A stretch of 64,000 nt of DNA. It comes from Cohaesibacter haloalkalitolerans. GTDB lineage: Bacteria; Pseudomonadota; Alphaproteobacteria; Rhizobiales; Cohaesibacteraceae. A model generated the notes under the pieces. That model was given only the letters and a program-made list of their open reading frames with translations. It made no database searches and had not been told where the DNA came from. The position numbers were made by a program, and so were the translations under genes. Shown here piece after piece: positions 17,069-51,048 of this stretch. How positions within the stretch are numbered: position 1 is the first letter of the stretch; the number at the start of each line of letters is the position of its first letter. The DNA lies in the NCBI RefSeq assembly GCF_003574655.1, contig NZ_QNUM01000004.1:186001-250000 (forward strand), read 5' to 3'.

Positions 17069-18232
17069 CTACTCACCCTTCCCTGATGCGCCCTGAGCGG
17101 CTTTCTCAAACGCGGTTAGCGTCATTTTTGGTTTGGCCAACTTGTTGGTGACCTGTACGGAGATATTCCCATTGTGCTGCCCCATGATTCCCTTGGTCAG
17201 ATAGACCCCACCGCATTTCAGACGAACAGGGTCATTCGGCCCGCTCTCCAGCATCAGGGTCTGACCAACATCGAGTTTCATGATTTCGCTGAGCGACATC
17301 TTCTTCTCGAACAGAAGGGCATCGACCTGGATCTCCGAGAGGAACACTTCCGTCGCCAGATGTCCTTCCCAGATGGGATCACGACCGAATTTTTCGCCCA
17401 TGAACATCTGCAGAAGAAGATCTCGAATCGGCTCGATTGTAGCATAGGGTAGCAGCATTTCGATCTTGCCACCCCGGTCTTCCATATCAATGCGCAATTC
17501 AACCAAGATTGCCGCATTGGCAGGCCGGGAAATGGCCGCAAAGCGCGGATTTGTTTCCAGACGCTCCAGCGTGAAGTTGACTGGAGACAGAGGCGCAAAG
17601 GCGGCCTCCGCATCTTCCAGAACAATCTCGATCATCTGGCGCACAAGGTTGAGCTCAATGGTCGTGTAGGGACGCCCCTCAACGCGGATGGCCGAGGTCC
17701 CGCGCCCCCCTCCGAGCAACACGTCGATGATGGAATAGATCAGGCTGGAATCGACCGTGATCAGACCCAGGTTGTCCCACTCCTCCGCCTTGAACACCGT
17801 CAGGATGGCAGGCAGAGGAATGGAGTTGAGATAGTCGCCAAACCGAATGGAGGTAATCGAGTCCAGAGACACTTCGACGTTGTCAGAGGTAAAATTGCGC
17901 AGGCTGGTGGTCGTCATGCGGACCAGACGGTCGAAGACGATTTCCAGCATCGGCAGACGTTCATAGGAGACAATAGCCGAGTCGATCAGCGCGCGCACAC
18001 CGCTGCGCTCACCGGCAAAGCCATCATCAAGGCTAAAGCCGAGCAGATTGTCGATCTCTTCCTGATTGAGCACCCGATCAGCGCCGCGCGAGGAGCCATC
18101 TTCCCCGTCCATCGGCTCATCGATCATCGCCGCCCATTGCGCAGCCATCTCATCGGCACTACCAGCACCCTGCTCTTCCAGAGCAGCGCCCCAATCGGCC
18201 ATCAGGTCTACACTGTCGTCATCGTCCGCCAT
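17069..18232 (-). CDS. fliM: Flagellar motor switch protein FliM
   Basis: The 387-residue product has the FliM core: LINSAIVSYERLPMLEIVFDRLVR-like helix, VSLDSITSIRFGDYLNSIP, the LLGGGRG loop, and a C-terminal SpoA domain with LDVGQTLML. It binds CheY-P and FliG in the cytoplasmic C ring and controls rotor direction. An N-terminal acidic extension of about 50 residues carries DWGAALEEQ before the CheY-binding-like NQEEIDNLL motif at 56-64, which in enteric FliM is at the very start. It lies 20 bp after fliL and immediately before the DUF6468 gene. Confidence 0.97.
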   Translation of the reverse strand: MADDDDSVDLMADWGAALEEQGAGSADEMAAQWAAMIDEPMDGEDGSSRGADRVLNQEEIDNLLGFSLDDGFAGERSGVRALIDSAIVSYERLPMLEIVFDRLVRMTTTSLRNFTSDNVEVSLDSITSIRFGDYLNSIPLPAILTVFKAEEWDNLGLITVDSSLIYSIIDVLLGGGRGTSAIRVEGRPYTTIELNLVRQMIEIVLEDAEAAFAPLSPVNFTLERLETNPRFAAISRPANAAILVELRIDMEDRGGKIEMLLPYATIEPIRDLLLQMFMGEKFGRDPIWEGHLATEVFLSEIQVDALLFEKKMSLSEIMKLDVGQTLMLESGPNDPVRLKCGGVYLTKGIMGQHNGNISVQVTNKLAKPKMTLTAFEKAAQGASGKGE

Positions 18233-43795: not shown

Positions 43796-46700
43796 ATGGT
43801 AACGAAGTCTCCAAAGATTCAGGATCCGACAGAAGCGGCTCTGTCAGCGGTTGAAGATGCTTTGAAACTGGATTTCGACGTCTCCGATGAGGCGGGCGAA
43901 AATCGGGCAAAGAGCATCGCCGACGGCACCAGGGACCCATCCGGCGAAAATGCCGGTGCCAAGGCTGATGCACGCAGCAAGAAAATCAAGCCAAGGCCAG
44001 CGAACGACGACCAGCAGTCTGTCGGCCACCTGTTGCATTCGCTGCAGCAGCCACCAAGCTCGGCCCCTTATGTGTTTGCCACCATCCTTTCCCTGTTCTG
44101 GGTCGCCATTGGTGGCGCCCTGTTCTTCATGGGATTTGGCGGAGCGCAGCTGGCAGAGGACGGCCTCGCAGGCATCGTCGATTCGCCCGCTGCTCTGGCT
44201 GCCATGGCAGGCATTTTCCTGCCCGTCATCCTGTTCTTCATGATGGCCTATATCGTCGTCCGGGCGCATGAGATGCGTCAGGTCTCCAACGCCATGACGC
44301 AGGTTGCCATGCGTCTGGTGGAACCGGAAAACGTCGCCAAGGAATCGGTCGTCAATGTCGGCCAGGCGATCCGCCGCGAAGTCGCTTCCATGAGCGACGG
44401 CATCGAGCGCGCTCTAGCCCGCGCCTCGGAGCTGGAAGTCATGGTGCACAACGAGGTGTCCTCGCTGGAACGTGCCTACACCGAAAACGAACTGCGCATC
44501 CGCTCCCTGATTGATGAACTGATCACCCAGCGCGAAGCGATCGTAACCAACTCCGAACGGGTTCGGGCCTCCATTTCCGGTGCCCACACCAGCCTGTCGG
44601 ACGAACTGAACACCACCAGCGAGTCAATCTCGAAAAGCGTTTCCGACGCGGGCTCCCGCGTTACCCTGTCGTTGGCCGAAAAGGGCGAACAGATCACCAT
44701 CGCGCTGGCCAACGCTGGCGAGACCATGGTCAACGTTCTGTCCAACCGCGGTTCCGATCTGGTTGACCGTCTGTCGACCACAGGTGCCAACGTCACCGAG
44801 TCCCTCACCGACGCTGGCCAGTCCATCACCAACCAGTTGAGCATGACCGGTACCGACATCTCCCAGAAACTGGAGATCACCGGCGGCGACCTGACCAGCC
44901 AGTTGGCCAGCATCGGCCATGAAGTGACCGATCGCTTCATCGGCGCAGGTCAGGAACTGACGGCAACCCTGTCCCAGACCGGTGAAACAGTCACCCAGAA
45001 CATCGCCGAAGTCGGCGCAGGCCTCAATTCCAACCTGCAATCCATCGGCAATGATGTCACGGCAAATCTGTCAACGACCGGCAATGCGCTCACCAGCGAA
45101 CTGAAGTCCATCGGTTCGGAAGTGACCGAAAACCTCGCCCTCACCGGCAGCTCGCTCACCAACGAACTGAAGACCATCGGCGCCGACGTGACCGGCAATC
45201 TGGCCGACACCGGCAACAGCCTGACCGGCGAACTTCGCTCGATCGGCGCGGAAGTCACGGCAAACCTTGCCAACACCGGCGGCTCGCTCAGCAACGAGTT
45301 GAAGTCGATTGGCTCCGAAGTGACCGAGAATATCGCCACCACCGGCCAGTCGCTCACCGACAATCTCAGGACCTTCGGCTCCGACGTTACCACCAATCTT
45401 GCCAACACCGGCGGCTCGATCACCTCCGAGCTGCGCGAAATCGGCAACTCGGTAACCGGCAGCCTGTCGGAAATCAGCTCCACGATGACCCGCTCGATGT
45501 CCGAGACGGGCTCTACGGTGGCAGAAAACATCCGCACCCAGGGCACTGAAATCGTCTCAGCAATCACGGAACGCTCCACCGAGGTTTCCCAGGCCCTCAA
45601 GGGCACCGGCGACGCTCTGCTGGTAGACCTCTCCCTGCGCGGCACCGAAATCAACGAGAAGCTGGACGAGACCGGCACCAACATTGCCCAGATGATCTCC
45701 AGCACCGGCGACAGCCTGACCCATCGCATGACGGAAACGGGAACCCACATTTCCCAGACCCTGTCGACGCAGGGCGAAGAGCTCTACAGCAAGCTGGACA
45801 ACACCGCCGACCGCATTCACCAGACGGTTGCCGTCAAGGGTGGCCAGCTCAACGAGCAGCTTGAGGCACACGCCACCAACCTTGGCTCCATGCTGGATGA
45901 ACGCACCAGCAACATGAACAACGTGCTGGAAACCCAGTCCCGCGCCATGTCCGAAAATCTCGAACAGGCCACCGGCAAGGCAACCGACGCGCTCAACTCG
46001 CGCTCCATGGAAGTCACCGAACGTCTGGCCATGGTCGGCACCGAGATCGCCAAGGTCATTGCCCAGCGCGGCAACAAGGTCAAGGAACTGTTCGAACATG
46101 CTGGCGGCGAGCTGACCAATGCCCTGCAGGGTCAGAGCGAGGAAATCCGCCTCGCCATGGAAGAGCGGGTCAAGGCATTCGACGATGTTGTCTCCGTTCA
46201 GGGCACCAACCTCGTCAGCCATCTCGGCGACCGTCTCGATACCCTCAGCCAGTCGATGGATCAGCGCATCAACGCGCTCGACCAGACGCTGTTCGCACGC
46301 GCTGGCGAGATCGAAAGCATGCTCGACACCCGGCTCGAGGGCTTCACGGTCAGCGTTACGGCGCGGGCAGAGGAAGTGGCCAACTCGCTTTCCAACCGCA
46401 CCGAGACTTTCGAGCAGGAGATCGCAACCCGCCTCAGCGGCTTCGAAGACAATATCTCCAGCCTGACCATGAATTTCGCAACCAAGGCAGACACGCTCAA
46501 CAGCGCCCTCGAAGAACGGACCAGCAAGCTCGACGAAACCCTCGACAGCCGCGCCCGGAATATCAACGAGACGCTGCTTGAACGGACACGCGATATCGCC
46601 AAGGCCTACTCGCAGGGTCAGAACGACATCAACGAGAGCATGGACCAGCGTCTCACGCTCGTTGGCGAGACCCTGTCCCGTCAGGCTCACGAACTCACAG

Positions 46701-49387
46701 AGACCCTCTCCGACCGCGTTGCCGAAATCAACGTATCGCTCGGCAGCAAGGTCTTTGAGGTTGCCGAAACGCTCGACAGCCGCTCGGCCCAGATCGAGGC
46801 TATTCTCAATGATCGCCTGAACGCGATCTCCACCAACTTCGCAACGGAAAGCGCCAAGGCACGCGATGCCCTCGCCTCCACGCTGACCACCGCAAGCGCG
46901 GAGATCACCGAGAAGACCGAGAGCTTCAACGCGGTTCTGGGTTCCCGGTCCGCCGAGCTGTCGTCCATTCTCGACGAAAAGGGCAATGCCGTCGTTCAGG
47001 CTCTCGACAGCCGGTCCGAAAGCATCACCGAGACCTTCCAGAAGGCTGGCGAAAGCATCATTCACAGCCTGTCCAGCCGCGGTGGCGAGATCGCCCGTGC
47101 GGTGGCGCAGGAAAGTGCCCGTGCCTCCCAGACCCTCGCCCAGACCGGCGACCATCTGGTCAGCACGATCACCGAGAACAGCGCCCGGGCAACCGAAGCG
47201 CTTGATGAGAGCACCAGCCGCGCTGTCATGGCCATCACCGAGAATACCCAACGCTCGGTTGGCTCGCTGACCAGCAGCACCGACCGCGCTGCCCATGCCA
47301 TGTCGGAAAGCGCCCAGCAGGCCGTCCAGATGCTCGAGGAAAGCACCTCGCGCACCCAGAACGCCCTCACCTCCAGCGCCGAACTGGCCTCCAGAGCCCT
47401 CAGCGAAAGCTCCAGCAACACGCTGGCTGCCTTCGAAGACACCTCACGCCGTGCCGTCAGCGCTCTCACAGAGACCTCCAGCGACACCCTCGCTGCCTTC
47501 GAGGATACCTCTCGCCGTGCCGTCAGCACCATCACCGAGACCTCCAGCGAAACACTGGCCGCCTTCGAGGACACGTCCCGCCGTGCTGTCAGCGCTCTTA
47601 GCGAAAGCTCCAGCGGAACTCTGGCCGCCCTTGATGAAGGCTCCAGACGCGCCGTCAGCGCCCTCAGCGAAAGCTCCCGTCAGGCCGTCGAGGCCATCGC
47701 CGAGAAATCCAGCGAGACGCTCACCGCCATGGACGAAAGCTCCAAGCGCACGGTCGAGGCTCTTACCATCAGCTCCGATCAGGCCCGCGCCGCGCTCGAA
47801 GCCTCTTCCAGCAATCTGGTCAAGGCCATTGCCCAGAGCAGCCACGACGCCATTATCAAGCTCGACACCTCCAACAAGCGTCTGGTCGAGGCCATGCGTA
47901 TTGCTTCCGACGAGGCAAGCCAGTCGATGAGCAGCACCAACGAACTGCTGCGCGCCGATGGCACGGAAATCGTCGAACGCCTGAAGCATGCCAACGACAC
48001 CCTGTCCGAACTGCTGCTCAACGCCGGTCACAGCCTGTCCACCATCGAGACAAGCCTGTCCGAGCAGACCAACCAGTTCCGCACGGTGGTCGAAACGGTT
48101 GTTCACGAAGCTGGCAACTCCACCGGCCAGCTCTCCGGTCATGTGCATGATCTGCGGGATGTTTCCACCAGCATCCTCGGCCAGGTCGCATCCCTCACCG
48201 ACAAGTTCGAGGAACAGGCTCAGGCCCTTGTCAACACGACCCGCATCATGGAATCGACCAACCACCGCATGGAAGGCTCGGTCGAGGAACGGCGTGCCAT
48301 GTTGGCCAACATGACCGAGGACCTCACCCAGCGGACCGAAGCCATCGAGAATGTTCTGAACAACTTCACCTCGATCATCGCAAGCACCCTCAGCACGGCA
48401 GAAGGCCGCGCCCGCGATGTCGGCATGTTGCTCAGCCAGAGCACCGAAGGCGTCTCCAAGGAGGTCATGGACCAGCTCGAACAGCTGCGCATCAATGCCG
48501 CTTCCGAAGGTCGCCGGGCAGCCGAGTCCATCCGTGCTGTTCAGCGCGAAATGAGCGAGGAAATGGTCCAGTCGATGGCCGATGCCAACGCCCGCTTCGA
48601 ACAGGCCACGCAGGACATCCGCGCCATCACGCAGGAAATCAAGCGTGATCTGGACACCACCCGCGCCGAGCTCAAGCAGGGACTCAGCGAACTGCCAACC
48701 GAAACCCGCGAGGCAACCGGAGCCATGCGCCGCGTTGTGTCCGAACAGATCGATGCCCTCAAGGAACTGTCCCGCGTGGTTCAGCGCCATGGCAACATGT
48801 TCGATACGGTTCCGGCCGCCGATCGCTCAAACCAGCAGCGGAATGCCGCTCCTGCTCCCAGCCAGCGTCCGATGCCTCCGGTTCAGCAGCCAAAGCGCCA
48901 GCCTGAACCACCGATGCAGCAGCCACAGCAGGCCAGCAACTATGCGCCGCAAAGCGCCAGAGAAGACGACAACCGGTCCGGCGGCTGGGTCTCCGATCTG
49001 CTGCGCCGCGCCTCCCAGCCCGAGGACAATATCCCTCAGCCGGGTGACGCCGAAGCGCTGGCTCCGATCTCCAAGGACATTATCCGCGGGATCGACAGCA
49101 GCAATCAGGCAGAAGCCTGGGAGAGCTACCGTCGGGGCGAAGGGGGCAGCTTCACACGCCGTCTTTACACCCTGAAGGGTCAGCAGACCTTTGAAGACGT
49201 CCGCATGCGCTACCAGCGTGACACGGACTTCCGCAACACGGTCAACCGTTATGTCGGTGATTTCGAGCGTATTCTGGATGACATTTCCAGAAAGGACCGC
49301 GACGGCAGCACGACGATGAACTATCTCACGTCTGACACCGGCAAGGTCTACACCATGCTCGCACACGCCAGCGGTCGCTTGGGATAG
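43796..49387 (+). CDS. Giant growth-pole-ring (GPR)-like membrane protein
   Basis: This 1863-residue protein has two membrane helices near its start (about 92-117 and 132-155) after a charged leader. A Ser/Thr/Glu/Ala-rich rod of about 1,500 residues follows, in 11- and 22-residue amphipathic periods resembling apolipoprotein. A Pro/Gln linker (about 1682-1720) precedes a conserved end (SYRRGEGGSFTRRLYTLKG, then RMRYQRDTDFRNTVNRYVGDFERIL). This is the layout of the Agrobacterium GPR protein, which forms a ring at the growing pole of Hyphomicrobiales. The name is inferred from architecture. Two 66-bp repeat blocks lie within it. It stands alone on its strand, ends at a UUCG terminator, and faces cheZ. 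Confidence 0.72.
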   Translation: MVTKSPKIQDPTEAALSAVEDALKLDFDVSDEAGENRAKSIADGTRDPSGENAGAKADARSKKIKPRPANDDQQSVGHLLHSLQQPPSSAPYVFATILSLFWVAIGGALFFMGFGGAQLAEDGLAGIVDSPAALAAMAGIFLPVILFFMMAYIVVRAHEMRQVSNAMTQVAMRLVEPENVAKESVVNVGQAIRREVASMSDGIERALARASELEVMVHNEVSSLERAYTENELRIRSLIDELITQREAIVTNSERVRASISGAHTSLSDELNTTSESISKSVSDAGSRVTLSLAEKGEQITIALANAGETMVNVLSNRGSDLVDRLSTTGANVTESLTDAGQSITNQLSMTGTDISQKLEITGGDLTSQLASIGHEVTDRFIGAGQELTATLSQTGETVTQNIAEVGAGLNSNLQSIGNDVTANLSTTGNALTSELKSIGSEVTENLALTGSSLTNELKTIGADVTGNLADTGNSLTGELRSIGAEVTANLANTGGSLSNELKSIGSEVTENIATTGQSLTDNLRTFGSDVTTNLANTGGSITSELREIGNSVTGSLSEISSTMTRSMSETGSTVAENIRTQGTEIVSAITERSTEVSQALKGTGDALLVDLSLRGTEINEKLDETGTNIAQMISSTGDSLTHRMTETGTHISQTLSTQGEELYSKLDNTADRIHQTVAVKGGQLNEQLEAHATNLGSMLDERTSNMNNVLETQSRAMSENLEQATGKATDALNSRSMEVTERLAMVGTEIAKVIAQRGNKVKELFEHAGGELTNALQGQSEEIRLAMEERVKAFDDVVSVQGTNLVSHLGDRLDTLSQSMDQRINALDQTLFARAGEIESMLDTRLEGFTVSVTARAEEVANSLSNRTETFEQEIATRLSGFEDNISSLTMNFATKADTLNSALEERTSKLDETLDSRARNINETLLERTRDIAKAYSQGQNDINESMDQRLTLVGETLSRQAHELTETLSDRVAEINVSLGSKVFEVAETLDSRSAQIEAILNDRLNAISTNFATESAKARDALASTLTTASAEITEKTESFNAVLGSRSAELSSILDEKGNAVVQALDSRSESITETFQKAGESIIHSLSSRGGEIARAVAQESARASQTLAQTGDHLVSTITENSARATEALDESTSRAVMAITENTQRSVGSLTSSTDRAAHAMSESAQQAVQMLEESTSRTQNALTSSAELASRALSESSSNTLAAFEDTSRRAVSALTETSSDTLAAFEDTSRRAVSTITETSSETLAAFEDTSRRAVSALSESSSGTLAALDEGSRRAVSALSESSRQAVEAIAEKSSETLTAMDESSKRTVEALTISSDQARAALEASSSNLVKAIAQSSHDAIIKLDTSNKRLVEAMRIASDEASQSMSSTNELLRADGTEIVERLKHANDTLSELLLNAGHSLSTIETSLSEQTNQFRTVVETVVHEAGNSTGQLSGHVHDLRDVSTSILGQVASLTDKFEEQAQALVNTTRIMESTNHRMEGSVEERRAMLANMTEDLTQRTEAIENVLNNFTSIIASTLSTAEGRARDVGMLLSQSTEGVSKEVMDQLEQLRINAASEGRRAAESIRAVQREMSEEMVQSMADANARFEQATQDIRAITQEIKRDLDTTRAELKQGLSELPTETREATGAMRRVVSEQIDALKELSRVVQRHGNMFDTVPAADRSNQQRNAAPAPSQRPMPPVQQPKRQPEPPMQQPQQASNYAPQSAREDDNRSGGWVSDLLRRASQPEDNIPQPGDAEALAPISKDIIRGIDSSNQAEAWESYRRGEGGSFTRRLYTLKGQQTFEDVRMRYQRDTDFRNTVNRYVGDFERILDDISRKDRDGSTTMNYLTSDTGKVYTMLAHASGRLG
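45041..45436 (+). repeat. Six 66-bp in-frame repeats (22 residues each)
   Basis: Residues 416-547 repeat the pattern SIGxxVTxNLAxTGxSLTxEL six times with small changes. The period is exactly 66 bp, so the rod is built of whole repeats. Confidence 0.9.
47408..47671 (+). repeat. Four 66-bp in-frame repeats, second type
   Basis: SSSxTLAAFEDTSRRAVSALxE is repeated four times (about residues 1205-1292), again with a 22-residue period but a different sequence from the earlier block. Confidence 0.9.
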
Positions 49388-49650: not shown

Positions 49651-51048
49651 TCAGCTGAACTGGGCGACCCGATCCCGCAAATCCAGAAACTCTTCTTCTT
49701 CCTCTTCCTCGGCGGCAACAGCTTTATCCTGCAAAGCGGAACCGAACACATCCGCAGGAGCAAAGACATCGGCATCGTCTTTCATCATCGCTGACAGGTC
49801 GTGCTCTCCTGCCTGGTCTTCAGCCTCAGAGGCAGCTTCTTCATCGGCGGAAACGGATGCGAACACATCGCCTTCCGGCTCAACTTCGTTTGAGACGCTA
49901 TCAAACAAATCGTCAGCCGCTTCTGCCTCGGCGGGGTCAACGGTTTCCAGATAGTCGGCAGCATCCTTTGTGGCATTTGCCTCACTTGCCCAGTCAAGAT
50001 CCTGCATATCTACGAAATCGACATCAGCCTGCTCGGCGATAACCGCATCATCAGCCTCGTCTGCCGCATCGGCTTCAATAGTTGCGAACTCTGCCTCTGT
50101 CTCGTCTTCCCCGTCAGCTGCACCGTCGGCAACCATGGCCTCGTCTTCATCCGCCTCGAACTCAGCATCCATGACGGATGGCCCGGTGTCAAACAGGGCA
50201 TCGGCTTCATCCTGTGTCATCTCGGCGGAGAGGTCGCAGCTGTCATCCTCATCTTCTGTCGCAGAACCGGCATTGGCGAACAGAGCATCGACATCGTCCT
50301 GATCGGCTTCTTCATGCAAATCAGCATTATCGAACAGCATGTCGACATCATCCTGCCCGACACCTTCCCCGGCGAGAGCAGGTCCGTTGAGCAGATGGGC
50401 GTCAGGCCGCTGGTCATGGCGTTTGTGATCATGCTGATCCACTTCCATGCCATCTGACTCGAAGCCCCAGATCTCGATCATGGAATTGATGCGGCTCTCG
50501 ATATAGCGCATGGCATCCACGATTTTCCGGATCCGCTGGCCGGTCAGATCCTGGAAGGAACAGGCCATGTAGATATTGGTCGCTTCCATATCCAGTTCAT
50601 CGCACTTGTCGCTGTCAGCCCCCATTTCGCGCAGCGTCCAGGCAAATTCCTGAATCTTCTCGGCAGCCCCCAGAATTTCACTCGTCGCACTTTCCGTCTG
50701 GGACACAATGGCATCAAGCTCGATCGTCGCCCGCTCGAAGCGTTCGGCTCCCTCATTGTCTTCGTGCTTGATCTGAGCAATTTCTTTCTTGGTCCGCTCG
50801 ATGGCGTGGGCCATATCGGCCAGATCCATGCGAACCTGATGCATGAGAGACGACGGCGCGCGTTCGCGAGTGATCGATTTTTCCAGTTTATCGATCGCGG
50901 ACAATAGGGTATCAGTATCTGCGTTACGGTTTCTGCGGGCATACTCTGCCAGGAACCAGCGACCTCTCGCAGTTTCCATCACGGCGGCTTCAATCGCCAG
51001 ATAGTCCTCTTGTCGCAGTGGTGAAGGTGGCATTGGTTTGCTGCTCAT
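49651..51048 (-). CDS. CheZ-like CheY-P phosphatase with long acidic tail
   Basis: The first 200 of 465 residues are helical and contain the CheZ active-site signature CSFQDLTGQRIRKIV, with Gln166 as the catalytic residue. CheZ dephosphorylates CheY-P and ends tumbling signals at the pole or C ring. The remaining 265 residues are very acidic and probably disordered. They carry three similar short motifs, GQDDVDMLFD (231-240), QDDVDALFAN (250-259) and TQDEADALFD (279-288). They resemble the C-terminal CheY-binding peptide of enteric CheZ and the FliM N-terminus. The ATG at 51048 is clear. It is divergent from an MFS gene and convergent with the growth-pole-ring-like gene. Confidence 0.85.
   Translation of the reverse strand: MSSKPMPPSPLRQEDYLAIEAAVMETARGRWFLAEYARRNRNADTDTLLSAIDKLEKSITRERAPSSLMHQVRMDLADMAHAIERTKKEIAQIKHEDNEGAERFERATIELDAIVSQTESATSEILGAAEKIQEFAWTLREMGADSDKCDELDMEATNIYMACSFQDLTGQRIRKIVDAMRYIESRINSMIEIWGFESDGMEVDQHDHKRHDQRPDAHLLNGPALAGEGVGQDDVDMLFDNADLHEEADQDDVDALFANAGSATEDEDDSCDLSAEMTQDEADALFDTGPSVMDAEFEADEDEAMVADGAADGEDETEAEFATIEADAADEADDAVIAEQADVDFVDMQDLDWASEANATKDAADYLETVDPAEAEAADDLFDSVSNEVEPEGDVFASVSADEEAASEAEDQAGEHDLSAMMKDDADVFAPADVFGSALQDKAVAAEEEEEEEFLDLRDRVAQFS

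Follow-up and report, generated by a model that had tools for sequence, protein, structure and literature searches.

The locus considered here lies in a 64,000 nt stretch of DNA from a marine bacterium (hereafter, the window) and raises the question of why a CheZ phosphatase should carry several tandem copies of a peptide that E. coli CheZ presents once, at the very end of its 214 aa. The gene (49651..51048, minus strand) is an open reading frame for a 465 aa protein, P0001, with orthologues across the genus and three internal motifs in a 265 aa acidic tail. Its assignment as CheZ, proposed in a preliminary description of this DNA, is borne out by Pfam PF04344 (E-value 5.2e-10; 40 bits, above the curated cut-off of 30.7). 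The enteric CheZ equivalog NF008368 (NCBIfam) scores 40.5 bits on P0001, far under its cut-off of 257, which marks the protein as a relative and not as an enteric equivalog. At an E limit of 1, a single PDB match is listed, 1kmi_Z, E. coli CheZ (E 0.0039), from an entry that contains CheY besides CheZ.

By alignment, an N-terminal segment common to the long-CheZ rows (EDYxAIExAVMETxRGRWFL..., residues 1-62, 50863..51048, minus strand) precedes the CheZ core (residues 63-200, 50449..50862, minus strand). The 1kmi_Z alignment runs from the DxxxQ pair through to the first tail motif and places D167 and Q171 of the DLTGQ element (50536..50550, minus strand) on E. coli D143 and Q147; both are invariant among 28 CheZ, and we take them to be the catalytic pair. 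The catalytic glutamine of P0001 is thus Q171 and not Q166 of SFQDLTGQR, as first described, since Q166 aligns with E. coli Q142. The 18 invariant columns of the 28-CheZ alignment include F165, Q166, D167, T169, G170, Q171 and R172, and also G222, P223, Q232 and D236. P0001 would be expected to dephosphorylate CheY~P.

All three tandem motifs of the preliminary description were found, the ranges given there (231-240, 250-259 and 279-288) being the motifs with flanking residues. Motif 1 (QDDVDMLF, residues 232-239, 50332..50355, minus strand) stands opposite the C-terminal peptide of E. coli CheZ in the 1kmi alignment; this position, together with the invariant Q232 and D236, points to a CheY-binding-like peptide after the core and supports the likeness to the enteric CheZ peptide that had been pointed out; the motifs also match the docking peptide of FliM. 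Motif 2 (QDDVDALF, residues 250-257, 50278..50301, minus strand) and motif 3 (QDEADALF, residues 279-286, 50191..50214, minus strand) were recognized by motif match and orthologue comparison. Motif 3 has Ala where most copies carry Ile or Val, and since Ala or Thr is kept at that position it may bind more weakly. When the 265-residue tail (residues 201-465) was shuffled 200,000 times and searched with the pattern of the preliminary description, three copies never appeared and two copies appeared in one shuffle. P0001 shares with E. coli CheZ the DxxxQ pair, the LLNGP...QDxVDxLxD tail element and, by prediction, a helical core, and differs from it in the N-terminal segment and in another conserved C-terminus (DLRDRVAQFS, 49654..49683, minus strand), kept in alignments across the genus. 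Other conserved tail pieces, MQDLDWA and DVFAS-like repeats, lie within window positions 49654-50013.

An AlphaFold model of P0001 built with the 28-CheZ alignment is weak by its mean pLDDT of 59.7. Within it, the core is predicted as helices 66-93, 98-141 and 146-194, the latter two long, and the predicted helices 232-240, 250-261 and 279-286 begin exactly on the three motifs, at a low block pLDDT (about 51-70). Elsewhere the tail falls largely below pLDDT 50, with motif-free helices also predicted, for example at 206-211, 372-380 and 436-464, the last being the longest. On the question of a dimeric four-helix-bundle core, a fold search with this model returned generic helical matches, 1kmi being absent among those listed.

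A long-CheZ orthologue is present in 16 of the 18 genus genomes searched (own genome included). In the remaining two (G006, 64% complete, and G007) shorter paralogues only were found. One of the 16 is frameshifted (G009, contig C20, L217); its CheZ, GPR-like and MlaE-like genes are all in pieces, which looks like poor assembly. Among the 15 intact orthologues a loose regex counts two motif copies in four genomes, three in four, four in five, six in one and seven in one. Conservation of the three motifs, offered earlier as a check, therefore holds for the array as such and not for its size: exactly three copies occur in only 4/15 genomes, within a range of 2 to 7, and in four genomes the orthologue lacks motif 3. 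The two closest orthologues have all three motifs identical at the protein level while the tail changes. Pooled over these two, motif codons show 8 synonymous and no nonsynonymous differences, against 107 and 77 for the rest of the tail (Fisher p 0.015, both comparisons sharing one reference), and the core shows 44 and 2. Over six orthologues the motif/tail contrast gives p 7e-6, with 36 synonymous and 17 nonsynonymous differences in the motifs; having one common reference, these codon comparisons are not independent. Extra copies could also reflect drift in a tolerant tail.

The same genome encodes two further CheZ, L002 with one terminal copy (SQDDIDALFD) and L003 with two (QDEVDAML and a terminal SQDDIDALFG). 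A cheY gene directly adjoins L003, and its product matches E. coli CheY at 67 of 122 positions, retaining D57, T87, Y106, V108, K109, L116 and K119. It departs from E. coli (A90S, K92T, I95V, A99K, A103V, V107I and T112N) at what we take to be the peptide-binding face. The genome holds 40 receiver-like matches to its own CheY. FliM, the 387 aa motor switch protein (17069..18232, minus strand; ORF with Pfam FliM 9.8e-65), has the docking-like motif QEEIDNLL at residues 57-64 (18041..18064, minus strand), in keeping with the Q-x-[DE]-[IV]-D-x-L-[LF] form of the FliM N-terminal CheY-binding motif. Such a motif occurs in all 11 long-form FliM read and in none of three short FliM paralogues; in contrast to the P0001 array, it is a single copy in 10 of the 11, with LL rather than LF as the usual ending, and two copies (QGDVDALF and QDEIDSLL) are found in the FliM at L152:1925-3031. 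Flagellar genes occupy window positions of about 5200-36400, about 13 kb from the CheZ gene, as called by eye from FlhB-, FliR-, FlgF/G-, flagellin-, FlgK/L- and FlgE-like ORFs, FliM alone being profile-tested. A 1863 aa apolipoprotein-repeat protein (PF01442; window 43796-49387, plus strand) adjoins the long CheZ in the genus genomes checked; going by the account in PMC8262873, it resembles GPR, the growth pole ring protein of Agrobacterium.

Searching this 5 Mb genome with a DNA pattern for QD[DE][IVM]DALF yields 10 sites, against none for the reversed control: each of the three CheZ has one, and the other seven, spaced by 57 bp, lie in a ZitP-like protein, P0002 (G000:C11, L043:7217-8614), whose gene adjoins FtsX-like and ABC-ATPase genes. 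With a broad pattern, 12 of 13 matches fall within the same four proteins. P0002 consists of an N-terminal zinc ribbon (PF13717, 3.2e-14; MJ0042_CXXC, 3e-15), seven tandem SQDDIDALF repeats of 19 residues built around SQDDIDALFDSPS, and a hydrophobic segment, which by hydropathy alone (peak 2.0 at residue 307 of trimmed L225, the same protein) is a single transmembrane-type segment after the linker. By sequence P0002 is ZitP-like, its C-terminal region being DUF3426-like only through an orthologue: DUF3426 gave no reported match on P0002 and a sub-threshold one on orthologue P0004 (9.4e-4, 19.7 bits, cut-off 27.7). Differences among the repeats are mostly synonymous (99 against 12 nonsynonymous over all within-gene pairs). 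A PopZ-type gene is present in the same genome (PF10691, 6.3e-26), and the zinc ribbon of P0002 is expected to bind this polar organiser. The best five named loci of the ZitP search are all Cohaesibacter (44-71% identity; records of the window's own genome are possibly absent from the collection), and each of the five has at least five motif copies, one locus being cut by a contig end. From these matches, the genus of the present genome is most likely Cohaesibacter. Caulobacter crescentus ZitP, as described in PMC5182063 and PMC5182065, likewise has an N-terminal zinc ribbon and a transmembrane segment, together with a DUF3426-like region; the Cohaesibacter-type ZitP read differ from it in a linker with 5-9 QDDIDALF-like repeats. 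CheY goes unmentioned in the main text of both papers, and the first describes the effect of ZitP on motility as being of unknown mechanism. Among the papers listed from an open-access library, none appeared to describe ZitP motif arrays.

A zinc ribbon of ZitP type is found in 85 of 111 genomes of the order. From 90 loci, 88 could be parsed, with at least four motifs in eight and none in 80; in 20,000 shuffles of each ZitP linker, no more than one motif ever appeared. The eight array-bearing proteins stem from four families that spell the motif differently (QDDIDALF; QSSIDDMF; QGDIDSLF/QDDIDGLF; QADLDALF), and one genome that shares its genus code with two array carriers has no motif. A further spelling, QGAIDDMF, is seen in the named MAG loci L169, L170 and L172. 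A quick tree, computed for 79 proteins with the linker removed, calls for four or more changes in array state, of which well-supported branches force two. Two to four origins of the array are therefore probable, with repeated loss as a possible alternative to repeated gain.

Beyond ZitP, a broader motif pattern is found in 98 of 150 genomes of the order (reversed control, 4/150) and a stricter one in 49 of 385 genomes of the class (control, 0). The 29 and 20 loci classified from the order and class scans, respectively, comprise CheZ (14 and 12), ZitP (2 and 0), EutB-like proteins (5 and 0) and others (8 and 7), with one locus lacking an ORF. Six of the 15 others belong to one family of about 200 aa with the motif at the C-terminal end; its members (L112, L113, L131, L145, L147 and L148) share a conserved TDYLNH and a CheZ-like ending, Q[DE][DE]IDALF. 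Five members scanned had no Pfam match above cut-off, and modelling gave, with confidence, a helical bundle for which no clear PDB counterpart emerged; the family is a candidate new CheY-binding protein. A membrane CSS-EAL c-di-GMP phosphodiesterase (L122:3764-5689, minus strand) carries four tandem docking-like motifs at its C-terminus, and a FliN (L153:1847-2173, minus strand) an N-terminal QDDIDAMF. A 99 aa ORF (L151:1608-1907) has a CheZ-like tail (LLNGPQ...SSQDDVDALF) and no catalytic core, possibly a stand-alone docking protein or a fragment. Multiple copies are also present in other CheZ, two to four by regex in L149, L150 and L160, and two in an annotated plasmid CheZ of Rhodovastum. 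A CheZ relative with 40% identity (L309) comes from a contig that is listed among viral ones but may be host DNA. Azorhizobium caulinodans belongs to the same order as the host of P0001. Its CheZ, reported by Liu et al. 2018 and described in a review (PMC8429497), has the conserved phosphatase motif, as does P0001, and differs in that the review's description of it names no multiple docking motifs.

We favor, with a probability of about 0.7, the reading that P0001 is a CheZ-type CheY~P phosphatase whose docking helix has been multiplied along the tail, the motif being a portable CheY/receiver tag that also appears in the ZitP-like protein. The single C-terminal CheY-docking helix of CheZ would have been copied along an acidic, mostly disordered tail, and each Q-x-x-[IV]-D-x-[LM]-[FL] element would form a short helix that packs against the alpha4-beta5-alpha5 face of CheY in its phosphorylated form, or of a CheY-like receiver, in the manner of the lone CheZ peptide and of the N-terminus of FliM. 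One face of CheY is common to CheZ and FliM (PMC3774744), and in Caulobacter changing the Ile-Asp of the FliM motif removes the density of CleD, a CheY homologue, at the motor (PMC7534056). Several docking sites beside the D167/Q171 active site may raise the local concentration and residence time of CheY~P, and the array could serve more than one receiver at a time. As a docking tag, the motif would have been reused in the two other CheZ and, seven times, in the ZitP-like membrane protein, whose array would dock receivers at the PopZ-organised pole. CheY binding, multivalency, phosphatase activity and polar gathering are what we infer.

CheZ acts on CheY, and cheY directly adjoins the motif-bearing CheZ L003; both points weigh against the idea that the motifs dock other CheY-like receivers, such as Cle-type c-di-GMP-binding ones, in which case the array would couple the phosphatase and the pole to c-di-GMP state and not to chemotaxis. 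We consider this unlikely, even with the large number of receiver-like proteins in the genome, the four copies on an EAL phosphodiesterase of another family, and the binding of Cle proteins to the FliM motif in Caulobacter (PMC7534056). Somewhat less probable still is that motif 1 alone is functional and the others are left over from local duplication, in an acidic tail that is free of constraint. The variable copy number inside one genus, the Ala or Thr at the core position of motif 3 and the fast-evolving tail would fit such remnants; the three unchanged motifs in the two closest orthologues, despite the changing tail, and the recurrence of arrays in unrelated proteins do not.

The least probable of the readings weighed, in our judgment, is a general short acidic amphipathic helix for another partner (PopZ, membrane or chaperone), unrelated to CheY. 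It draws on the acidic character of linkers and tail and on the polar nature of Caulobacter ZitP and PopZ (PMC5182063, PMC5182065), but in Caulobacter the part of ZitP that binds PopZ is the zinc ribbon (PMC5182065). Moreover, the CheZ read usually end in the motif, which matches that of FliM, and CheZ makes up 14/29 and 12/20 of the classified motif loci.

Returning to the multiplied docking helix as the preferred reading, the long CheZ is a known phosphatase in a new form, and the ZitP arrays come as the greater surprise. A known one-copy docking peptide becomes a countable, evolving array, present also on a second, probably polar, scaffold, and its tandem occurrence on an unrelated ZitP-like membrane protein suggests how the swimming signal might be collected at selected sites in the cell. 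We speculate, as a tentative proposal that we would not yet back, that several lineages of the order independently made ZitP a multivalent CheY/receiver trap which, with multi-motif CheZ, would form a PopZ-ZitP platform concentrating, buffering or delivering CheY~P near the flagellar pole. If true, this platform would tie chemotaxis directly and physically to cell polarity.
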